DNA of 39,129 nucleotides from Desulforhopalus sp. (GTDB taxonomy: Bacteria; Desulfobacterota; Desulfobulbia; Desulfobulbales; Desulfocapsaceae). How positions within the stretch are numbered: the stretch's first letter is position 1; each line of letters starts with the position of its first letter. Made by a program: the position numbers and the translations under genes. Positions 12,177 through 20,457 of this stretch are shown here, piece by piece. Location of the stretch: contig JANJUM010000261.1 in NCBI GenBank assembly GCA_024710585.1, forward strand, positions 1 through 39,129. Reading direction: 5' to 3'. The notes below the pieces were generated by a model, which saw nothing but the letters and a program-made list of their open reading frames with translations, did not search any database and was not told the DNA's origin.

Positions 12177-13502
12177 ATGAAGATAAGAGGCGCAGCAACT
12201 CTCTTCTCCCTGATGGCGGCGATCGTACTCTTCGCCGGTCAGGCCATGGCCGAGCCGATCACCATCGAGTGGTGGCACGCCATGAGGGGCGCGCGTGGCG
12301 AGACCCTCGACAAGATGGTCAAGGCCTTCAACGACTCGCAGCAGCAATACAAGGTCGTCGCCGTCAACAAGGGCGATTACGGCGAGGTGGTCAACGCCGG
12401 CGTAGCCGCCTACCGTGCCAAAAAGCACCCCCACATCCTCCAGGCCTTCGAGGTCGGCACCATGACCATGATGCGCTCCGGGGCCATCTACCCGGTGTAC
12501 AAGCTCATGGCCGACGAGGGCTACAAGATCGACTGGTCCGGCTATCTGCAGGCGGTGCTCAGCTACTATGTCGACGAGAAGGACAACCTCCTCTCCATGC
12601 CGTTCAACTCCTCCACCGCGGTCATGTACTATAATGTCGACCTGTTCAAGAAGGCCGGTCTCGAGATGCCGTCGAAGACCACGCCGCTGACCTGGGACCA
12701 GATGGACGAGATCACCAAGAAACTGGTGGCCGCCGGCGCCAAGAAGGGCATGGTCACCACCTGGCAGTCGTGGATCCAGGTCGAGAACTACAGCGCCATC
12801 CACGATATCCCCTTCGCCACCAAGGCCAACGGCTACGAAGGTCTGGATACCGAGATGGCCATCAACAACCCCAAGGTCATCAAGCATCTCGAGCGCCTCA
12901 AGTCGTGGATGGCCGACAACCGCTTCTCCTATGAGGGCCGTGAGTATCAGGGCGCCAACTCGACCTTCGTCGCCGGCGACGCCGCCATCCTCATGGAGTC
13001 GGTGAGCGGCATCGGCAACGTGCAGAAGAACGCCAAGTTCGCCTGGGACATCGCCCCGCTGCCGGTGGAAGCCGACATGAAGCAGCCGCAGAACAGCATC
13101 ATCGGCGGCGCCTCGCTGTGGGTCATGCAGGGTCATGCCAAGGAGGAGTACAAGGGCGTCGCCGCCTTCCTCAACTTCCTTGCCCAGCCCGACATGCAGA
13201 AGCTCTGGCATAAGGAGACCGGCTACTTCCCGATCACCCTCAAGGCCTACGAAGAGCTCAAGCAGGAAGGCTTCTTCGACAAGATCCCCTACCAGGAAGT
13301 CGGCATCAAGCAACTCAACCGCACCAAGCCGACCAAGAACTCCCGTGGCATCCGCCTCGGCTACTTCGTGCAGATCCGCAACATCCTCGACGAGGAGATG
13401 GAACTGATCTGGAACGGCAAGAAGACCCCGGCCCAGGCGATTGCCGACGCCACGGCCCGCAGCAACGAGAAGCTGCGCGAGTTCGAGAAAACCAATAAAT
13501 AG
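12177..13502 (+). CDS. ugpB: Periplasmic glycerol-3-phosphate-binding protein of ABC importer
   Basis: A 441-residue extracellular solute-binding protein (family 1). A Sec signal peptide covers residues 1-25 (hydrophobic core LFSLMAAIVLFAG, cleavage after GQAMA). The mature protein starts EPITIEWWHAMRG, matching the start of UgpB-type proteins. Typical family stretches include AAILMESVSGIGN, and the two permeases beside it align closely with E. coli UgpA and UgpE, which supports sn-glycerol-3-phosphate or glycerophosphodiesters as substrate. The ATG at 12177 follows GCAGGAGGA. A strong stem-loop lies just after its stop, before ugpA, and could protect this highly expressed message. Confidence 0.92.
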   Translation: MKIRGAATLFSLMAAIVLFAGQAMAEPITIEWWHAMRGARGETLDKMVKAFNDSQQQYKVVAVNKGDYGEVVNAGVAAYRAKKHPHILQAFEVGTMTMMRSGAIYPVYKLMADEGYKIDWSGYLQAVLSYYVDEKDNLLSMPFNSSTAVMYYNVDLFKKAGLEMPSKTTPLTWDQMDEITKKLVAAGAKKGMVTTWQSWIQVENYSAIHDIPFATKANGYEGLDTEMAINNPKVIKHLERLKSWMADNRFSYEGREYQGANSTFVAGDAAILMESVSGIGNVQKNAKFAWDIAPLPVEADMKQPQNSIIGGASLWVMQGHAKEEYKGVAAFLNFLAQPDMQKLWHKETGYFPITLKAYEELKQEGFFDKIPYQEVGIKQLNRTKPTKNSRGIRLGYFVQIRNILDEEMELIWNGKKTPAQAIADATARSNEKLREFEKTNK

Positions 13503-13535
13503 CAACGCCGGGGCCTCGCCCCCGCTGACACCCCA

Positions 13536-13576
13536 GGGCCGCCGGGGAATTCCGTGCAGGGATTCCCCGGCGGCCC
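13536..13576 (+). repeat. Strong stem-loop between ugpB and ugpA
   Basis: A perfect 15-bp inverted repeat, GGGCCGCCGGGGAAT (13536-13550) and ATTCCCCGGCGGCCC (13562-13576), with an 11-nt loop, then GTATTTT. It sits in the 117-bp gap between ugpB and ugpA. In ABC operons such hairpins commonly stabilise the binding-protein mRNA and partly stop transcription, giving excess binding protein over permease. The downstream T-run makes partial termination plausible. Confidence 0.8.
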
Positions 13577-13619
13577 GTATTTTCAACCGCCGCCCGCGGC
13601 GCTTTGGCGGACGCATGCC

Positions 13620-14510
13620 ATGATCAAACGGTCCCACTTCTCTTCCAAGGGGTTGGCCTACCTGCTCATCACCCCGCAGGTTCTGGTGACCTTGGCCTTT
13701 TTCTACTGGCCGGCGGTGCAGGGGCTGGTGCAGTCGCTGATGCTCAGTGACCCCTTCGGCCTGAAGAGCCAGTTCGTCTGGTTCGAGAACTTCCAGCGCA
13801 TCTTCACCGACCCGCTCTATCTCAAGTCGATCGGCATCACCCTCTTCTTCAGCCTGATGACCGCCTTCATCTCGCTGGCCGTGGGGCTCTTCCTGGGCAG
13901 CATGGCCAACCGTGCCTTGCGCGCCAAGGCGCTGCTGCGCACCCTGCTCATCTGGCCCTACGCGGTGGCCCCGGCGATTTCCGGCATCCTCTGGCTCTTT
14001 CTGCTCCACCCCTCCTACGGTGTCGTCGCCTACTTCCTCCGCGAGGTGGTTGGCATGAACTGGAACCCGGTGCTCAATGGCAACGATGCCCTCTTCCTGG
14101 TGATCATCGCCAGCGCCTGGAAGCAGATCAGCTACAACTTCGTCTTCTTCATGGCCGGCCTGCAGGCCATCCCCCACTCGCTGGTCGAGGCCGCGGCCAT
14201 CGACGGCGCCGGGCCCCTGCGGCGCTTCTGGGTGATCACCTTCCCGCTGCTCTCGCCGACCATCTTCTTTCTGACGGTGATGAACATCATCTACGCCTTC
14301 TTCGAGACCTTCGGCGTCATCCACACGGTGACCCAGGGCGGACCCGGCGGGGCGACCAACACCCTCGTCTACAAGGTCTATCAGGATGGCTTCATCGGCC
14401 TCAACATGGGGGCCTCCGCCGCCCAGTCCCTGGTGCTGATGGCCCTGATCATCACCATTACCGTGCTGCAGTTCCGCTATGTTGAAAAGAAAGTCCAGTA
14501 CACCATGTGA
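13620..14510 (+). CDS. ugpA: sn-glycerol-3-phosphate ABC importer permease
   Basis: A 296-residue inner-membrane permease with six predicted helices. It aligns along its length with E. coli UgpA: YLLITPQVLVTLAFFYWPA near the start, DPFGLKSQFVWFENF, LIWPYAVAPAISGILWLFLLHP, SAWKQISYNFVFFMAGLQ, the EAA loop EAAAIDGAGPLRRFWVITFPLL, and the ending LQFRYVEKKVQYTM. The EAA loop is where the UgpC ATPase docks. Start is ATG at 13620; more upstream in-frame codons would fall within the intergenic hairpin. It overlaps or touches ugpE, so the two are translated together. Confidence 0.93.
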   Translation: MIKRSHFSSKGLAYLLITPQVLVTLAFFYWPAVQGLVQSLMLSDPFGLKSQFVWFENFQRIFTDPLYLKSIGITLFFSLMTAFISLAVGLFLGSMANRALRAKALLRTLLIWPYAVAPAISGILWLFLLHPSYGVVAYFLREVVGMNWNPVLNGNDALFLVIIASAWKQISYNFVFFMAGLQAIPHSLVEAAAIDGAGPLRRFWVITFPLLSPTIFFLTVMNIIYAFFETFGVIHTVTQGGPGGATNTLVYKVYQDGFIGLNMGASAAQSLVLMALIITITVLQFRYVEKKVQYTM

Positions 14511-14518
14511 CCGCCATG

Positions 14519-15439
14519 ATGGTTGAACGCACCCCCGTCCTCGACACCCTGACCTATGTCTTTCTCCTTGCCGGTATCTGCGTGGTCGGTTTCCCCATCT
14601 TCTACGCCCTGACCGCCGCCACACTGCCTCTGGAAAAGGTGGTGCAGGTGCCGATGCCCCTGCTGCCCGGGGACCAGTTCTTCGTCAATATCGGGGCCGC
14701 CTGGAGCGAGGGCCACCTCGGGCGGCAGCTGATCAATTCCTTCATCATGGCCAGCGGCATCACCTTCGGCAAGATCACCGTGTCGATGTTCGGCGCCTTT
14801 TCCATCGTCTACTTCAACTACCGCTTCCGACAAGTGGCTTTCGCCACCGTTTTCTGCACCCTGATGCTGCCGGTGGAGGTGCGCATCCTGCCCACCTACG
14901 AGATGGCCGCCAACATGTTCGGCCCCTTGCAGTGGCTGATCGACACCCTCCATCTCGGCGCCGTGGTGCAGTGGTTTACCGGCAACGAGTTCGAGGTTTC
15001 CCTGGAGTGGAGCCTGCTCAACAGCTACACCGGCCTCATCCTGCCCCTGGTCGCCTCGGCCACCTGCACCTTCCTCTTCCGCCAATTCTTCCTCACCATC
15101 CCCGAGGAGCTATGCGAGGCGGCCAAGCTCGACGGAGCCTCGGCCATGGCCTTCTTCTGGCGCATCCTCCTGCCGTTGTCCACCACCAACATAGCCGCCC
15201 TGGTGGTCATCGAGTTCGTCTACGGCTGGAACCAGTACCTCTGGCCGCTGCTCATCACCACCACCCCGGAGATGACCACCGCCGTCATCGGCCTCAAGGA
15301 CCTCATTCCCCAGGCCGACGACCTGCCGACCTGGAACGTCGCCATGGCTGGCGCCCTGCTGGTCATGGCGCCGCCGGTACTGGTGGTGCTGCTCATGCAG
15401 CGCTGGTTCGTCAAAGGACTGGTGGAGCGGGAGAAATAA
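14519..15439 (+). CDS. ugpE: sn-glycerol-3-phosphate ABC importer permease
   Basis: A permease of 306 residues from ATG 14519, chosen because MVERTPVLDT aligns with the start of E. coli UgpE (MIENRPWL). ATG 14516 and a GTG at 14507 that overlaps the ugpA stop are alternatives; none has a clear ribosome-binding site, so coupling to ugpA is likely. Matches to UgpE include ITFGKITVSMFGAFSIVYF, TLMLPVEVRILPTYE, SATCTFLFRQFF, the EAA loop CEAAKLDGASAMAFFWRILL, and YGWNQYLWPLLI. Odd feature: about 34 extra residues (135-168) sit between PTYEMAANM and LNSYTGLILPL, where E. coli has a short turn. Inserted residues such as WLIDTLHLGAVVQWF look amphipathic and may form an extra periplasmic or membrane-surface element. 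Confidence 0.93.
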   Translation: MVERTPVLDTLTYVFLLAGICVVGFPIFYALTAATLPLEKVVQVPMPLLPGDQFFVNIGAAWSEGHLGRQLINSFIMASGITFGKITVSMFGAFSIVYFNYRFRQVAFATVFCTLMLPVEVRILPTYEMAANMFGPLQWLIDTLHLGAVVQWFTGNEFEVSLEWSLLNSYTGLILPLVASATCTFLFRQFFLTIPEELCEAAKLDGASAMAFFWRILLPLSTTNIAALVVIEFVYGWNQYLWPLLITTTPEMTTAVIGLKDLIPQADDLPTWNVAMAGALLVMAPPVLVVLLMQRWFVKGLVEREK

Positions 15440-15648: not shown

Positions 15649-16983
15649 ATGAACCCCATCTGCATCGTCGACGACCAACCCTATATCTGTTCCACCGTCT
15701 CCAATATCCTCAAGGACGAAGGCTACCCGGCACTGGCCTTCGCCGACGCCGAGAGCTTCTGGGCGAGCCTCGACACCCTCGAGCCCTCGCTGGTCATGCT
15801 CGATATCTGGCTGCCCGGCTCGGATGGCCTGGAGTTGCTCAAGCGTCTGCAGGGGCGTTTTCCCAACCTGCCGATCATCATGATGAGCGGCCATGCCGGC
15901 ATCGAGACGGCGGTGGCCGCCATCAAGGCCGGGGCTTACGACTTCATGGAGAAGCCGCTGCACCTCGAGGCCCTGCTCGACAAGGTCAAGTCGGCGGTCA
16001 AGCATCTTCCGGTGAAGAGCGAGCTGCCGCTGGTCTCCGACGCCGAGGTGGAGACGGTCAGCGCCGACTGCCTGATGCCCCCGGGCATGGTCGAGCTGGT
16101 CGAGTCGGCCATCCCGCAGCGCACCGTGCGCGAGAATGTCGTCCTCAATGGCGTCGGGCTGCTCAGTGGCAGGAAGACCGGCATCATCCTCAGCCCCTTG
16201 GGCGTCGACAGCGGCATCGTCTTCCAGACCCTTGACGGGCAGATCATCCCCGGGCATATCACCGCGGTGGAAAACTACTGCCAGGGCGACTCTTCCAAGA
16301 CCTTCTCGGCCAACTCCACCACCCTCGACAACGGTCGCCAGCAGGTGCGCACCGTCGAGCACCAGCTGGCCATCTTTTCTGTCTACGGCATCACCAACGT
16401 CCTCGTCAAGGTCGACGACGAGGTCCCCAATATCGACGGCTCGGCCAAGGATTTCTGCGACCTCATCGTCCAGGCGGGCATCGAGGAGCAGCCGGCCCCG
16501 ACGCGGGTGGCGGTGATCCGCAAGCGCATCGGCATAGGCAAGGACGAGAAGCAGGAGAAGCACCTCTTTGTCGAGCCCTACGACGGCTTCGAGATCAACA
16601 TGCGCGTCGACTACCCCGCGCCTATCGGCGAGCAGCAGTTTACCTTCAACCCGGCGACCATGTCGTTCGCCCGCGACATCGCCCCGGCGCGATCTTTCAA
16701 CACCTTCGAGAACATCGAGATGGCGCAGCGCCTCGGCAAGGTCGGCGGCGGCTATCTCAACTCGCACATCATCATGTACCAGGGCAAGGTGATCAACACC
16801 GAGCTGCGCTACCCCGACGAGTTCGTGCGCCACAAGATCCTCGACCTCATCGGCGACCTCTGCCTGCTCGGCTACCCGATCCGCGGGCGGATCACCGCCA
16901 ACATGACCTCCCACGGCTACAACCAGGCCCTGGTGGAACGCCTCCACCAGGCCATCGCCAGCAGCTCGCGGCTCGGCCGCTGA
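15649..16983 (+). CDS. lpxC: Response-regulator receiver domain fused to LpxC (UDP-3-O-acyl-GlcNAc deacetylase)
   Basis: A 444-residue two-domain protein. Residues 1-120 are a CheY-like receiver: acidic pair D8-D9, phosphorylation site D52 (VMLDIWLPG), S80 (MMSGHAG) and K102 (FMEKP). Residues 121-154 form a linker. Residues 155-440 are a full LpxC, which removes acetate from UDP-3-O-acyl-GlcNAc, the committed step of lipid A synthesis. LpxC active-site residues are all present: E237-H238 in RTVEHQ, H395 and D399 in EFVRHKILDLIGD, and H422 in TSHGYNQ. This is one continuous frame with no frameshift. E. coli LpxC is about 305 residues and has no receiver. The fusion suggests that a histidine kinase sets deacetylase activity or stability. 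The gene appears alone: ugpE lies upstream past a terminator and the next operon converges. Confidence 0.95.
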   Translation: MNPICIVDDQPYICSTVSNILKDEGYPALAFADAESFWASLDTLEPSLVMLDIWLPGSDGLELLKRLQGRFPNLPIIMMSGHAGIETAVAAIKAGAYDFMEKPLHLEALLDKVKSAVKHLPVKSELPLVSDAEVETVSADCLMPPGMVELVESAIPQRTVRENVVLNGVGLLSGRKTGIILSPLGVDSGIVFQTLDGQIIPGHITAVENYCQGDSSKTFSANSTTLDNGRQQVRTVEHQLAIFSVYGITNVLVKVDDEVPNIDGSAKDFCDLIVQAGIEEQPAPTRVAVIRKRIGIGKDEKQEKHLFVEPYDGFEINMRVDYPAPIGEQQFTFNPATMSFARDIAPARSFNTFENIEMAQRLGKVGGGYLNSHIIMYQGKVINTELRYPDEFVRHKILDLIGDLCLLGYPIRGRITANMTSHGYNQALVERLHQAIASSSRLGR

Positions 16984-17077: not shown

Positions 17078-18286
17078 TCAGGCGTTATCCATCATGACGC
17101 ACTCTTCGAGGCGATCCTGGAAGTCGGGGATGGCCGCGGTGACGCGCACCCAGGCCGGCATCATGGGGATGCCCACCGGGTCGTCGACGAACTCCGGGAT
17201 GGCCAGCTTGAGCGCCTGCACGAAGGCTTCGACCGCCTCGATCTCGTTATGGCGGTCGTAAAACAGCCCGTTGATCAGCGACAGGGCGTGGTACTTCTCG
17301 ATGCTGATGCGCGCCTCCTGGATATAGGAGGTGAGCAGAGTGCGGAAGAAGGCGTCGCTGAAGATGATGCCGTCTTGGGAGAGCACGCGGAAGAGGGCCT
17401 TGGCGATGTCGCGGGCCATGCGGATGAGACCCTCGGCGGGCTGGTCCTTCTTGAGGACCTGGTGCTTGTGCTCGTAGGATTCGGCGATCTCCACCTGGCA
17501 GATGCGGTTCACCGAGGCCGCCTGGTAGATCTCGCTGAGCAGACTGACCTCGAGGCCCCAGGTGGGCGAGACGCGGATGCCCTTGGCGAGGCTGGCGATC
17601 ATGGCGAACTCGCCGGAGAGGGCGTAGCGGAAGTTGTCGAGATAGGAGAGAAAGGCGTTGGCCTTGAGGATGTGTTTCAGGGTGCGGATCAGCGGGGAGT
17701 AGAAGAGCCGCGTCACCCGCCCGTAGAGGCGGTCGGTGACGCGGGCGTAGTAGCCCTTGCTGAACTCGAAGTCGGTGGCTGGGTGCACCACCGGGTAGAT
17801 GAGCCGCGCCAGCAGCGAGCGGTGGTAGTTGACGATGTCGCAGTCGTGGGTGGCGACGGCATAGACGTCGCGGTCGGCGAGGATATAGCCGAGGGTCATC
17901 CACACCGAGCGGCCCTTGCCGGGGTGGTCCATGGAGAAGTCGCTGTCGCGCAGCTCGCGCAGCAGCTCCTTCATGCCGGGCCCGTCGTGCCAGACGATAG
18001 TCATTTCCGTGGGAAGGTCGGCGGTCAGTTCGCGGATGCGCTCGAACTGCTCCCGGTCGGCCTGGTCGAGGGAGAGGACGATCTTGTGCAGATAGCCGAC
18101 CTCTTTGAGCTCGTCGAGGATTCGCGGCATCGCCGGGGTATCGAACTCCGAAGCCAGGGCGGGGAGGAGCAGCGCCATCTTGCGCTTGACGCCGATCTTG
18201 AGCAGCTCCGCCTCGATCTCCTCCACCGGCCGCTGTCGCAGATGCTGCAGGACGGTGACCGCGCCATGTTGCCAGAAATCAGACAT
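17078..18286 (-). CDS. Glucosyl-3-phosphoglycerate synthase-like glycosyltransferase (GT81 type)
   Basis: A 402-residue GT-A glycosyltransferase resembling GpgS. Visible: a Rossmann-like start KMALLLPALASEFD (about 36-49), HPGKGRSVWMTLGYIL (121-136), the metal-binding DCD at 148-150, KGYYARVTDRLYGRVTRLF (near 185), LSGEFAM, and GLEVSLLSEIY. The last elements and the order match GT81 enzymes, which transfer glucose from a nucleotide sugar to 3-phosphoglycerate. The product, glucosyl-3-phosphoglycerate, is dephosphorylated to glucosylglycerate, a compatible solute or a polysaccharide primer. It is the third gene of the operon; its start overlaps the upstream glycosyltransferase stop by 8 nt. 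The phosphatase in the operon supports the assignment. Sugar donor and exact acceptor are inferred. Confidence 0.78.
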   Translation of the reverse strand: MSDFWQHGAVTVLQHLRQRPVEEIEAELLKIGVKRKMALLLPALASEFDTPAMPRILDELKEVGYLHKIVLSLDQADREQFERIRELTADLPTEMTIVWHDGPGMKELLRELRDSDFSMDHPGKGRSVWMTLGYILADRDVYAVATHDCDIVNYHRSLLARLIYPVVHPATDFEFSKGYYARVTDRLYGRVTRLFYSPLIRTLKHILKANAFLSYLDNFRYALSGEFAMIASLAKGIRVSPTWGLEVSLLSEIYQAASVNRICQVEIAESYEHKHQVLKKDQPAEGLIRMARDIAKALFRVLSQDGIIFSDAFFRTLLTSYIQEARISIEKYHALSLINGLFYDRHNEIEAVEAFVQALKLAIPEFVDDPVGIPMMPAWVRVTAAIPDFQDRLEECVMMDNA

Positions 18287-19535
18287 TGGAACCTCCCTGG
18301 GCCCAGATGGAGCGGAGATAGTCCTTCATCTCCTCGAAGAGCAGGGCCTGGGCCTCGAAGTGTCGCTCCGCCTCCTCGCTGTTCAAGTTTTCCAGTTCGT
18401 TGATCAACGACGCCACCCGCGCATGGTAGAGGGGGATCATCGTGCTGAGCAGCTTGATGCGCTGGCGCGGCGTCACCCGGAAGGCAGCGGCGTAGCGGTA
18501 GACGGTGCGCACCCAAACCTCGAGGGGCAGGATCAGCTCGCTGGCGTCGTCGTCGGCCACCAGGCGGCGGTAGGTCTCGTAGTCGTCAGGCTCGAGGATC
18601 TGCTTCCACACCCCGCTGAAGTTGCCGTAGCCCATGCGGAAGTATTCCACCAGGCTGGAGCGGTCGATAGCGAAGGCCGGGGCCTCCTGGGCGACCTCCT
18701 CGCCGGTCAGCGCCACCTCCTGCGAGCCATCCATCCGTTGCCAGAAGGACTCGTGCACCTCCATGAGGGCGAAGATGGTGCCGACCACTTGCTGGAACAT
18801 CGGCCCGAGGTCGTTGGCGGGGTCCTTGTGGCCGTGGATCTTGGCACCGAGCCGCGCCTGGCAGATGGCGAAGCCGCCGACCATGGCGGAGACGGTCATA
18901 TAGATGTCGATGCCGAACTTGGCGACATCCGTCTCCCAGACATCCTGGTCGAGGTAGTGCTTGGCCAGTCGTCGCGACACGCCGAAGTCGCCGCCGATGG
19001 GCTGGCGCACGCGCTGGCCGTAGAGGGCGCGGGTCAGATTGTAGGCGATGGTGTTGGTGATGGTGCCGTCGAGCTTGAAGCGCCGATAGTGGGGGCAGAC
19101 GAGGTCATAGCCCTGGGCGATGGGGGCGAGCAGGTTTCGCACCCACTCCGGGGTGATCGACACCAGGTCCGAGTCGAACACCGCCAGGGCCTCGGCCCTG
19201 AGAAAGGTGGCCGCCTCGAAGATCGCCCGCAGGCCGGAGCCCTTGCCGGGGATACCGCGGTAGATGGAGACCATCTTCTCGATGGAGAAGGATTCGATCT
19301 CGAGCTGCTCGGCGAACTCGCGGGTATCGTCGGTGGAGCCGCCGTCGGACACGAAAATCAGCGCCTTGGCGCCGGGGTAGTACTTGCCGAGTCCTTCGGC
19401 CACGGTCTTGATGACGTGGACGATGGCCGCGCCGCTCTGGAACGAGGGGATGCCGATGACGATATCGGCGTGGCCGAGCGCCTCTATGTGTTCGCGCAGC
19501 GGGGTGCGCAGGGCGGTGGAGAAGCGTTGACTCAT
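18279..19535 (-). CDS. GT2-like glycosyltransferase, glucosylglycerate synthase-like
   Basis: A 418-residue GT-A glycosyltransferase. It starts with ADIVIGIPSFQSG (about 23-35), then VSDGGSTDDT (62-71), GKGSGLRAIFEAA (98-110), the metal-binding DSD at 121-123, and QPIGGDFGVS near residue 180. The last motif, with the large C-terminal helical part, recalls glucosylglycerate or mannosylglycerate synthases that join a nucleotide sugar directly to D-glycerate. It overlaps the HAD phosphatase upstream by 4 nt (ATGA) and the GT81-like gene downstream by 8 nt, so the three are tightly coupled. Two routes to the same solute, one via phosphate and one direct, have been described in Persephonella; this operon may hold both. 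Exact activity is not proven by sequence. Confidence 0.72.
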   Translation of the reverse strand: MSQRFSTALRTPLREHIEALGHADIVIGIPSFQSGAAIVHVIKTVAEGLGKYYPGAKALIFVSDGGSTDDTREFAEQLEIESFSIEKMVSIYRGIPGKGSGLRAIFEAATFLRAEALAVFDSDLVSITPEWVRNLLAPIAQGYDLVCPHYRRFKLDGTITNTIAYNLTRALYGQRVRQPIGGDFGVSRRLAKHYLDQDVWETDVAKFGIDIYMTVSAMVGGFAICQARLGAKIHGHKDPANDLGPMFQQVVGTIFALMEVHESFWQRMDGSQEVALTGEEVAQEAPAFAIDRSSLVEYFRMGYGNFSGVWKQILEPDDYETYRRLVADDDASELILPLEVWVRTVYRYAAAFRVTPRQRIKLLSTMIPLYHARVASLINELENLNSEEAERHFEAQALLFEEMKDYLRSIWAQGGSNV

Positions 19536-20419
19536 GGGACCTCCTTAAGGGTGCTGGGGATGTCGGGGGTTGGCCGCGCGGTCTGGCCGGGGGAGCTCGC
19601 CTCCAGGCCGACGATGCGCAAAAAGGCCAGCACCTGCCGGTTCCAGCCGCGGCTCGACGGCTCGCTGGCGCGGATCGCCTTGGGCAGATGCAGGTCGGCA
19701 TAGCCGCCTCTGCCATCGGGCAGCAGCACCGGCATGTCGACCGCCGCCAGCATCGGCAGGTCGTTGGGGCTGTCGCCCAGGGCCATGGTGATCACTGGTC
19801 CGCCGGCGTGGCGGCGGAAGCGCTCGCAGAGAAAGGTCACCGCCCGGCCCTTGTCCTGGGCGGCTGCGGCAAGGTGATGGAAGCGCCCCCCGGCGAGCAC
19901 CTGCAGGCCCCGCTCGGCGGCCCAGGCGATCAGCGGCAGCAGCCGCGCCGGTTCCTCGAGGAGAAAGGGCTCGGTGTACTCGCGGGCTGCGGCGAGAGAG
20001 GCCTTGGTCGGGTGTAGGCCGGTGAGCGCCGCCACCTGGGCCGGTTCCATGTCGCCGAAGCCGCGAACGGCGAAGGTGCGGGCCGCCTCGGCCAGAACCT
20101 GGCGGATGACGGCGTAGGGCAGGCCCCACTCGATCAGGGCGTAGCGACCGTCCCCTTCGGGGGGAAGTTCTCCCAGGCCGGCGAAGTCCCGGGGGATGAA
20201 GAGGGCGGCGCCGCTTTCGGCGATGAAGGGGGTGTCGAGGTCGAGGAGAAGGCGCACCGCTTCCATTTCCCGGCGGGTCTTGCTCGAGACGAGGATGAGG
20301 GGGACGCCATGGCGGCGCAGGGCCTCCAGGGCCTCCGTCGCCGCGGCGAAACCGTAGTTGTCACGATCCAGCAGGCAATTGTCCAAGTCACTAAAAACAA
20401 TGGGATATGGTTTGTTCAT
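19532..20419 (-). CDS. HAD phosphatase, mannosyl/glucosyl-3-phosphoglycerate phosphatase-like
   Basis: A 295-residue HAD-superfamily class IIB phosphatase. Motif I is FSDLDNCLLD near residue 9 (nucleophile and general acid Asp), motif II VSSKTRREME, and motif IV GDSPNDLPML near residue 215. The domain between motifs II and III is the type C2 cap of MPGP enzymes, which cleave phosphate from glycosyl-3-phosphoglycerate. The ATG at 20419 is preferred because AGGA lies about 8 nt upstream and MNKPYPIVFSD is the normal start; an upstream start would add ten residues of no pattern. It is first in the operon with two glycosyltransferases. Its job as the second step after the GT81-like enzyme is a strong inference from context. 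Confidence 0.82.
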   Translation of the reverse strand: MNKPYPIVFSDLDNCLLDRDNYGFAAATEALEALRRHGVPLILVSSKTRREMEAVRLLLDLDTPFIAESGAALFIPRDFAGLGELPPEGDGRYALIEWGLPYAVIRQVLAEAARTFAVRGFGDMEPAQVAALTGLHPTKASLAAAREYTEPFLLEEPARLLPLIAWAAERGLQVLAGGRFHHLAAAAQDKGRAVTFLCERFRRHAGGPVITMALGDSPNDLPMLAAVDMPVLLPDGRGGYADLHLPKAIRASEPSSRGWNRQVLAFLRIVGLEASSPGQTARPTPDIPSTLKEVP

Positions 20420-20457
20420 GGGGATTCCTGTCGCTGCACGATATAGCATAAAGTAAA

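Follow-up and report, generated by a model that had tools for sequence, protein, structure and literature searches.

A receiver-LpxC fusion in Desulfobulbales and Nitrospirota, and comparative evidence linking it to NtrY-type histidine kinases

We describe a gene of a Desulforhopalus genome whose product joins an NtrX-like receiver domain to LpxC. This enzyme catalyses the committed step towards lipid A, the outer-membrane anchor; it is the principal point at which LPS synthesis is controlled, and a drug target. Sequence comparison leads us to predict that the LpxC part is catalytically competent and that phosphorylation of the receiver governs its activity or stability, with the phosphate most likely supplied by an NtrY-type kinase, and we give this reading a probability of about 0.6. 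No description of such a REC-LpxC fusion was found in the literature searched (open-licence PMC papers), and the main text of a 2025 review contains neither the word receiver nor the word fusion (PMC12444477). Receivers on enzymes and regulation of LpxC are both already known; what is new is a receiver on an LpxC that is able to stand in for the housekeeping enzyme.

The fusion gene and its product

As the original prediction had it, a single open frame encodes both parts (Table 1): the frame is open, its product is 444 aa long and both Pfam domains lie above their cut-offs, namely Response_reg (E 6.2e-28, 97.6 bits against a cut-off of 30.2) and LpxC (PF03331; E 2.9e-71, 240.5 bits against 27), with no further Pfam domain in the protein at E 0.001. 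The product passes the NCBIfam equivalog cut-off of TIGR00325 lpxC (202 against 187.25 bits) and misses that of the bifunctional LpxC/FabZ family NF009667 (179.9 against 465 bits). Chance, mis-assembly and gene-calling artefacts are ruled out as explanations because the fusion recurs, in full-length homologues 71-84% identical to it, in many separately assembled genomes, isolates included; most of its homologues share the start MNPICIVDD.

Each of the ten residues that had been called complete stands at the number given for it, and none of them varies across the 27 fused proteins aligned, drawn from the host order, Nitrospirota and one Aminicenantes genome. Five of them are the receiver residues of Table 1; the others (E237, H238, H395, D399 and H422) line up with the motifs of Pseudomonas aeruginosa LpxC, and we take them to be the zinc ligands and catalytic (acid/base) residues of the enzyme. 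An AlphaFold2 model of the fusion (mean pLDDT 77.6, pTM 0.66, with part of the linker below a pLDDT of 50) contains the LpxC fold, which aligns to 7pzw over 273 residues (VIA-align Z 28.8, rmsd 3.2) and has its best matches in the LpxC structures of P. aeruginosa, E. coli and A. aeolicus. For the receiver, the best match among solved structures is the Brucella abortus NtrX receiver 4d6y (Z 22.4, rmsd 1.2, 119 residues, 44% identity), with other receivers lying within 1 Z of it. NtrX is likewise its top NCBIfam response-regulator family, at 111.8 bits, a score far under the cut-off of 600 because the receiver is the sole shared part. The protein itself is not an NtrX, having by Pfam the REC domain and neither sigma-54 AAA+ nor Fis HTH.

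Among ten fused gene pairs, the dN/dS of the receiver ranges from 0.025 to 0.195 in the nine with finite dS. It is similarly low for the LpxC domain (0.037-0.191 across the pairs), and higher than both for the linker (0.098-0.815) in the eight of ten pairs where it was computable. By this measure the receiver and the LpxC domain are both under purifying selection, and the receiver is kept functional in the fusion proteins.

Table 1. Coordinates of the fusion gene, its domains and neighbours, and of related loci in other genomes
Feature	Sequence	Position	Strand	Remarks
REC-LpxC fusion gene	window	15649..16983	+	444 aa plus stop
Receiver domain, residues 4-113	window	15658..15987	+	NtrX-like; D8, D9, D52, S80, K102; Pfam, alignment, structure match
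Linker, about residues 114-156	window	15988..16116	+	residues 120-141 pLDDT under 50; raised dN/dS
LpxC domain, residues 157-433	window	16117..16947	+	E237, H238, H395, K396, D399, D403, H422; Pfam, alignment, structure match
ABC importer genes	window	12177-15439	+	sugar-type solute-binding protein, permeases
Glycosyltransferase, HAD-type hydrolase, 402-aa protein	window	17078-20449	-	glycosyltransferase with mannosylglycerate-synthase match; 402-aa protein without Pfam match
ntrY and fusion, G540	L258	5903-9972		
ntrY and fusion, G464	L259	8848-12920		
Histidine kinase gene upstream of REC-LpxC, G065	L163	5051-7133		overlaps small gene with weak BamD similarity
NtrX remnant, G019	L314	4896-5186		
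Receiver, sigma-54 AAA+, AAA lid and LpxC in one protein, G041	L142	6500-8674		725 aa
lpxC, ntrY and ntrX in a row, G557	L322	3825-8546		one strand

The gene stands alone in the 39-kb window (the whole stretch of DNA analysed, 39,129 nucleotides): a permease frame of the importer cluster ends 209 bp upstream, and the downstream gene is convergent. In line with the prediction that no kinase lies next to the fusion, a tblastn search of the window with the catalytic halves of two NtrY kinases (E 1e-3) gave no match. The ABC sugar importer, glycosyltransferase and HAD neighbours are local to the window, and those on the minus strand are possible compatible-solute genes. A shared operon function was rejected for most fusions, the best-shared neighbour cluster being present in three of the 29 fused loci compared; L033 and L180 among these belong to one genome, and L142, also among them, encodes a longer protein that stayed outside the LpxC cluster.

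Distribution of the fusion and replacement of the canonical enzyme

The spread of the Response_reg plus LpxC architecture was looked up and takes in the host order and the sampled Nitrospirota and Acidobacteriota. LpxC is present in at least 237 of the 257 Desulfobulbales genomes (PF03331 search), and at least 30 of the 257 carry an LpxC domain with a receiver. The latter count, which includes two fusions apparently cut by contig ends (G032 and G033), is a lower bound, since the re-search covered the 41 genomes that had several matches or whose best E was weaker than 1e-86, and the rest of the order was taken as canonical from its scores. Beyond the order, the fusion is present in at least 12 of the 295 Nitrospirota-phylum genomes sampled (ten close and two divergent), and a divergent version occurs in three of 119 sampled genomes of the phylum holding the Aminicenantes genome, which we take to be Acidobacteriota in GTDB. 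The carriers include Desulfoprunum benzoelyticum DSM 28570, Desulfofustis glycolicus DSM 9705, isolates of Desulfopila and Desulforhopalus, and Nitrospirota MAGs. Eleven further LpxC frames of 403-706 aa from the Nitrospirota and Aminicenantes-phylum samples gave no receiver by tblastn at E 1e-2, a test that did detect the receivers of two known fusions, and a 448-aa LpxC frame (L232) has no receiver on inspection.

In a tree of 66 LpxC domains, whose bootstrap is not fully settled, a 100/100 branch separates all 37 fused rows from the 29 canonical rows; 21 canonical rows were left out of this tree (L113, L114, L128, L133, L145-L148, L150, L153, L154, L156-L161, L247, L249, L251 and L256). On this phylogeny the fused LpxC domains are one protein lineage. 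The fusion of the window is 74-76% identical at the protein level to three Nitrospirota fusions (L044, L048 and L049), whereas the same comparison between phyla yields 42-47% for canonical LpxC and 36% for NtrY; the excess over canonical LpxC points to transfer of the fusion between phyla. A search of 72,556 plasmid records at E 1e-30 gave no plasmid match for it.

The original prediction would have been weakened by a second full-length lpxC in the genome with the fused copy not needed. Half of that objection stands here, as the host genome (4.15 Mb in 276 contigs, 95.8% complete) does have a normal lpxC, a 337-aa frame on contig C13 that adjoins lpxK, and its LpxC domain is about 36% identical to the fused one. 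With this second copy present, it would be unsafe to suppose that all lipid A synthesis of the organism is under the control of the fused enzyme. NtrY and NtrX are also present, side by side (tblastn), and with normal lpxC, NtrY and NtrX all kept, the fused copy may be dispensable here; since NtrX is kept, the fused receiver would also have to compete with it. The probable role of the fusion in this genome is that of a second, regulated LpxC alongside the normal enzyme.

The same objection does not hold for relatives: in 11 of the 30 host-order genomes with a fusion, no other LpxC was found (G001, G017, G025, G038, G041, G065, G067, G172, G173, G174 and G175), the isolate D. benzoelyticum among them; G030 and G176, which have contig-end fragments of a normal lpxC, were counted as having one. 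Canonical lpxC adjoins lpxK, or is one small frame away from it, in all 18 canonical loci, and from six of the fusion-only genomes it is missing at an otherwise intact lpxK locus. There, lpxK is followed by the c23 gene in G017, G172, G174 and G025 (by a 23-residue remnant of c23 in G172) and by proC in G038 and G065, with 30-225 bp between the lpxK match and the next-gene match; the related genome G033 still has lpxC at that lpxK locus. This count excludes G041 and G001, whose contigs end at the locus, and G175, in which no lpxK was found, and in the sequence after lpxK of G173 and G067 neither lpxC nor the usual next gene was found. Other enzymes of the pathway are largely retained: among this genome and 20 in which no LpxC but the fusion was found, LpxD is present in 20 of 21 (missed in G038) and LpxB in 20 of 21 (missed in G041), and LpxK is present in 16 of 17 host-order genomes tested, some of them not fusion-only (missed in G175). 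We regard it as very probable that the fusion works as an LpxC, and the simplest reading of these genomes is that it can carry lipid A synthesis alone.

These observations also bear on the idea that the LpxC domain has moved to another substrate, so that the fusion acts outside lipid A synthesis, which we regard as very unlikely. It would fit the retention of a normal lpxC in this genome and the loop of the main fused clade, AR[ST]FNTF as against ARTFGYV in the two canonical copies compared. It sits poorly with the fusion being the sole LpxC found in over a third of the fused host-order genomes, with LpxD, LpxB and LpxK being kept in nearly all fusion-only genomes tested, and with the score above the TIGR00325 equivalog cut-off; moreover, three of the four divergent fusions aligned (G041, L055 and G571) keep an ARTFGF loop, the fourth (G540) having ARTYGS.

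Associations with NtrY and NtrX

Comparative evidence at the level of gene order links the fusion to an NtrY-type histidine kinase. In two Nitrospirota genomes, G540 and G464, the start of the fusion overlaps the stop of an NtrY-type kinase gene by four bases (ATGA), and the fusion occupies the position after NtrY that is usually held by NtrX. The overlapping kinase has 734 aa, with NtrY_N, HAMP, PAS, HisKA and HATPase_c domains. A DUF4390 gene lies directly before ntrY in G540 and a gene of the same size has that place in G464, the domain being confirmed by Pfam in L258 only and not in L259. In L258 a tetrahydrofolate dehydrogenase/cyclohydrolase gene follows the fusion.

A kinase beside the fusion is not a general rule, and was rejected as one: NtrY-like kinase domains were detected by tblastn in seven of 44 fused loci (G065, G174, G030, G009, G540, G464 and G639; the 44 include a few genomes twice), and the genes overlap in G540 and G464 only. 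The NtrY of the host genome is itself paired with NtrX. G065 has another kinase, of HAMP-HisKA-HATPase type, encoded on the strand of the fusion some 1.5 kb upstream of it. In G317 the gene that follows the fusion was rejected as a kinase, its domains being HAMP-HD_5. Across genomes, tests of 24 fused genomes detected NtrY in 22, among the matches listed; the two without detectable NtrY, G065 and G262 (best E about 4e-7, among the matches listed), mean that NtrY is not the universal partner.

Those two genomes, together with the absence of a normal lpxC from some of the genomes that carry the fusion, are what would be expected of a passive receiver, carried by an alternative housekeeping LpxC for which phosphorylation is irrelevant. 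We consider this quite unlikely, given that the five phosphorylation residues do not vary in any of the aligned fused proteins, that selection on the receiver is, by dN/dS, about as strict as on the LpxC domain and more relaxed on the linker, and that a kinase gene overlaps the fusion in two genomes.

The presence of NtrX differs between fused and canonical-only genomes. By tblastn of the fetched stretches, an intact NtrX lies beside NtrY in seven of eight canonical-only genomes (the exception being G046; in G039 another gene stands between the two) and in only five of 19 assessable fused genomes. The 19 exclude G175, where the contig ends, and G540 and G464, which were set aside because the fusion itself sits there. 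A genome-wide search of 70 chosen host-order genomes, 30 fused and 40 canonical-only, split cleanly into orthologues with E at most 1e-167 and other proteins at 1e-97 to 1e-104. Among the matches listed, NtrX is absent from 8 of 30 fused against 1 of 40 canonical-only genomes (Fisher p 0.004, ignoring kinship) and from 7 of 11 fusion-only genomes against 2 of 59 others (Fisher p 9e-6, again ignoring kinship); when only genomes at least 90% complete are taken, the corresponding figures among the matches listed are 5 of 8 against 2 of 57 (p 1.3e-4, ignoring kinship). Two of the fused genomes without NtrX are incomplete (G001 at 84% and G174 at 75%). By taxonomy, NtrX was lost at four places among G174 and the more complete fused genomes, namely genus g4 of family f1, family f4, G041 and G019. 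In G019 a remnant of NtrX adjoins an intact ntrY, with both ends in one frame and the middle part, comprising the phosphorylation site and the AAA+ domain, gone. Outside the order a probable NtrX is present elsewhere in five of seven fused genomes, among the matches listed (G257, G259, G288, G571 and G639), and the canonical-only Nitrospirota genome G526 has, among the matches listed, an NtrX score no better than G540 and G464, so that NtrX absence there is not special to fused genomes.

The retention of NtrX in the other fused genomes of the order, 22 of 30 including this one among the matches listed, is what a sink or feedback role would need, and could be taken to favour signalling in reverse, with the LpxC domain sensing lipid A precursor flux and adjusting how well the receiver drains phosphate from NtrY, whereby NtrX output would report LPS supply. 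As fusions persist in the eight genomes where no NtrX was found among the matches listed, this cannot be the only role, and we hold it to be very unlikely as an account of the fusion.

Two loci bear on how the fusion could have arisen. The only LpxC found in G041 is a protein in which a receiver, a sigma-54 AAA+ domain and an AAA lid precede LpxC, with no helix-turn-helix by Pfam; the same genome has an NtrY preceded by a DUF4390 gene, no adjacent NtrX and no NtrX orthologue among the matches listed. This NtrX/NtrC-type protein is a possible intermediate between NtrX and REC-LpxC. In the canonical-only genome G557, of the Aminicenantes-phylum sample, lpxC, ntrY and ntrX stand in a row on one strand, an arrangement that offers a route by which such a fusion could arise. 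On contig C38 of G585, lpxC and NtrY matches are about 0.7 kb apart on one strand, among the matches listed. A tree of 48 receivers was unresolved and too weak to place the fused receivers, so descent from NtrX is not demonstrated by it.

Proposed mechanism and relation to known control of LpxC

We propose that a membrane kinase of the NtrY type would set the phosphorylation of D52 on the fused receiver, NtrY being the presumed donor also in this genome, where NtrX exists as well. The phosphorylated receiver would alter the activity or lifetime of LpxC through the linker, and the output of the two-component system would then be the committed enzyme of lipid A synthesis itself, with no transcription factor between. 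Upstream, a periplasmic DUF4390 protein would perhaps tune NtrY, as proposed for PlrP and PlrS, where genetic evidence has the DUF4390 protein PlrP acting on the NtrY homologue PlrS (PMC13001219). The original prediction that the receiver places LPS synthesis under a histidine kinase is thereby borne out in part: the complete receiver and the NtrY-type link speak for it, and the normal second lpxC of this genome against it. As to the sign, we lean, as a guess, towards phosphorylation acting as a brake on the fused LpxC, given that lpxC transcription is reduced by NtrYX in the species measured and that NtrY could not be detected in two fused genomes. A more extended proposition, that NtrY phosphorylates LpxC directly and without transcription, and that the fusion has replaced the housekeeping LpxC and, in several lineages, NtrX, and has spread between phyla, is tentative, and we would give it slightly less than even odds.

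Response regulators with enzyme outputs are known, among them CheB and the GGDEF, HD-GYP and PP2C types. The fusion resembles these in having a receiver joined to an enzyme, but their outputs are signalling or modifying enzymes and that of the fusion is the committed enzyme of envelope biosynthesis. With canonical LpxC (TIGR00325/PF03331) it shares the fold, zinc ligands and catalytic residues; it differs in its N-terminal receiver and linker, in its separate, well-supported lineage and in lying outside the lpxK-lpxC locus. NtrX is the closest regulator to the fused receiver by NCBIfam score and by the sequence and fold of solved structures, and shares with it the NtrY linkage seen in G540 and G464, whereas the fusion has no AAA+ or DNA-binding domain and its output is an enzyme.

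Receivers that serve as proteolysis adaptors, such as RssB and CpdR, raise the alternative of phospho-regulated proteolysis, in which the receiver is a built-in degradation switch and a protease removes the fused LpxC according to its phosphorylation state, with an outcome like that of FtsH. Control of LpxC turnover is known in E. coli (PMC12444477), and the C-terminal tail of the fusion is short relative to the canonical copy of this genome. Set against this, control of LpxC activity by a bound protein is also known, by MurA in P. aeruginosa (PMC12444477), and we judge a pure degradation switch unlikely.

Control of LpxC as previously described consists of proteolysis in E. coli, activating MurA in P. 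aeruginosa and broad transcriptional regulons (PMC12444477). The P. aeruginosa MurA-LpxC and E. coli YejM-LapB-FtsH systems resemble our proposal in being post-translational, but work through separate proteins with no phosphotransfer (PMC12444477). The NtrYX system is reported to lower lpxC transcription in the alphaproteobacteria Rhodobacter sphaeroides and Caulobacter crescentus (PMC12444477); in the former, deletion of NtrYX raised lpxC transcripts 8.8-fold, with no NtrX site lying at lpxC (PMC7240162). There, unlike in the fusion, NtrYX acts on lpxC via transcription (PMC12444477, PMC7240162). A two-component control of lpxC in a sulfate reducer has a precedent in the NtrC-type regulator DVU2934 of Desulfovibrio vulgaris, for which lpxC was the single mapped target; that protein, likened here by its description, binds DNA upstream of lpxC and is not fused to it (PMC3333781).

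If our main reading is true, a receiver on LpxC would give a sensor kinase direct, fast and reversible control of the enzyme. Such direct kinase control is testable because nature provides the contrasts: a fusion overlapping ntrY, a fusion that is the sole LpxC found in an isolate, and a fusion beside a normal LpxC. The fusion further provides a concrete route by which evolution could have passed from NtrYX acting on transcription to control exerted on the enzyme, the G041 protein being a possible intermediate. Its presence as the sole LpxC found in several relatives suggests that in these bacteria a sensor kinase may control outer-membrane synthesis directly, and not via gene expression.
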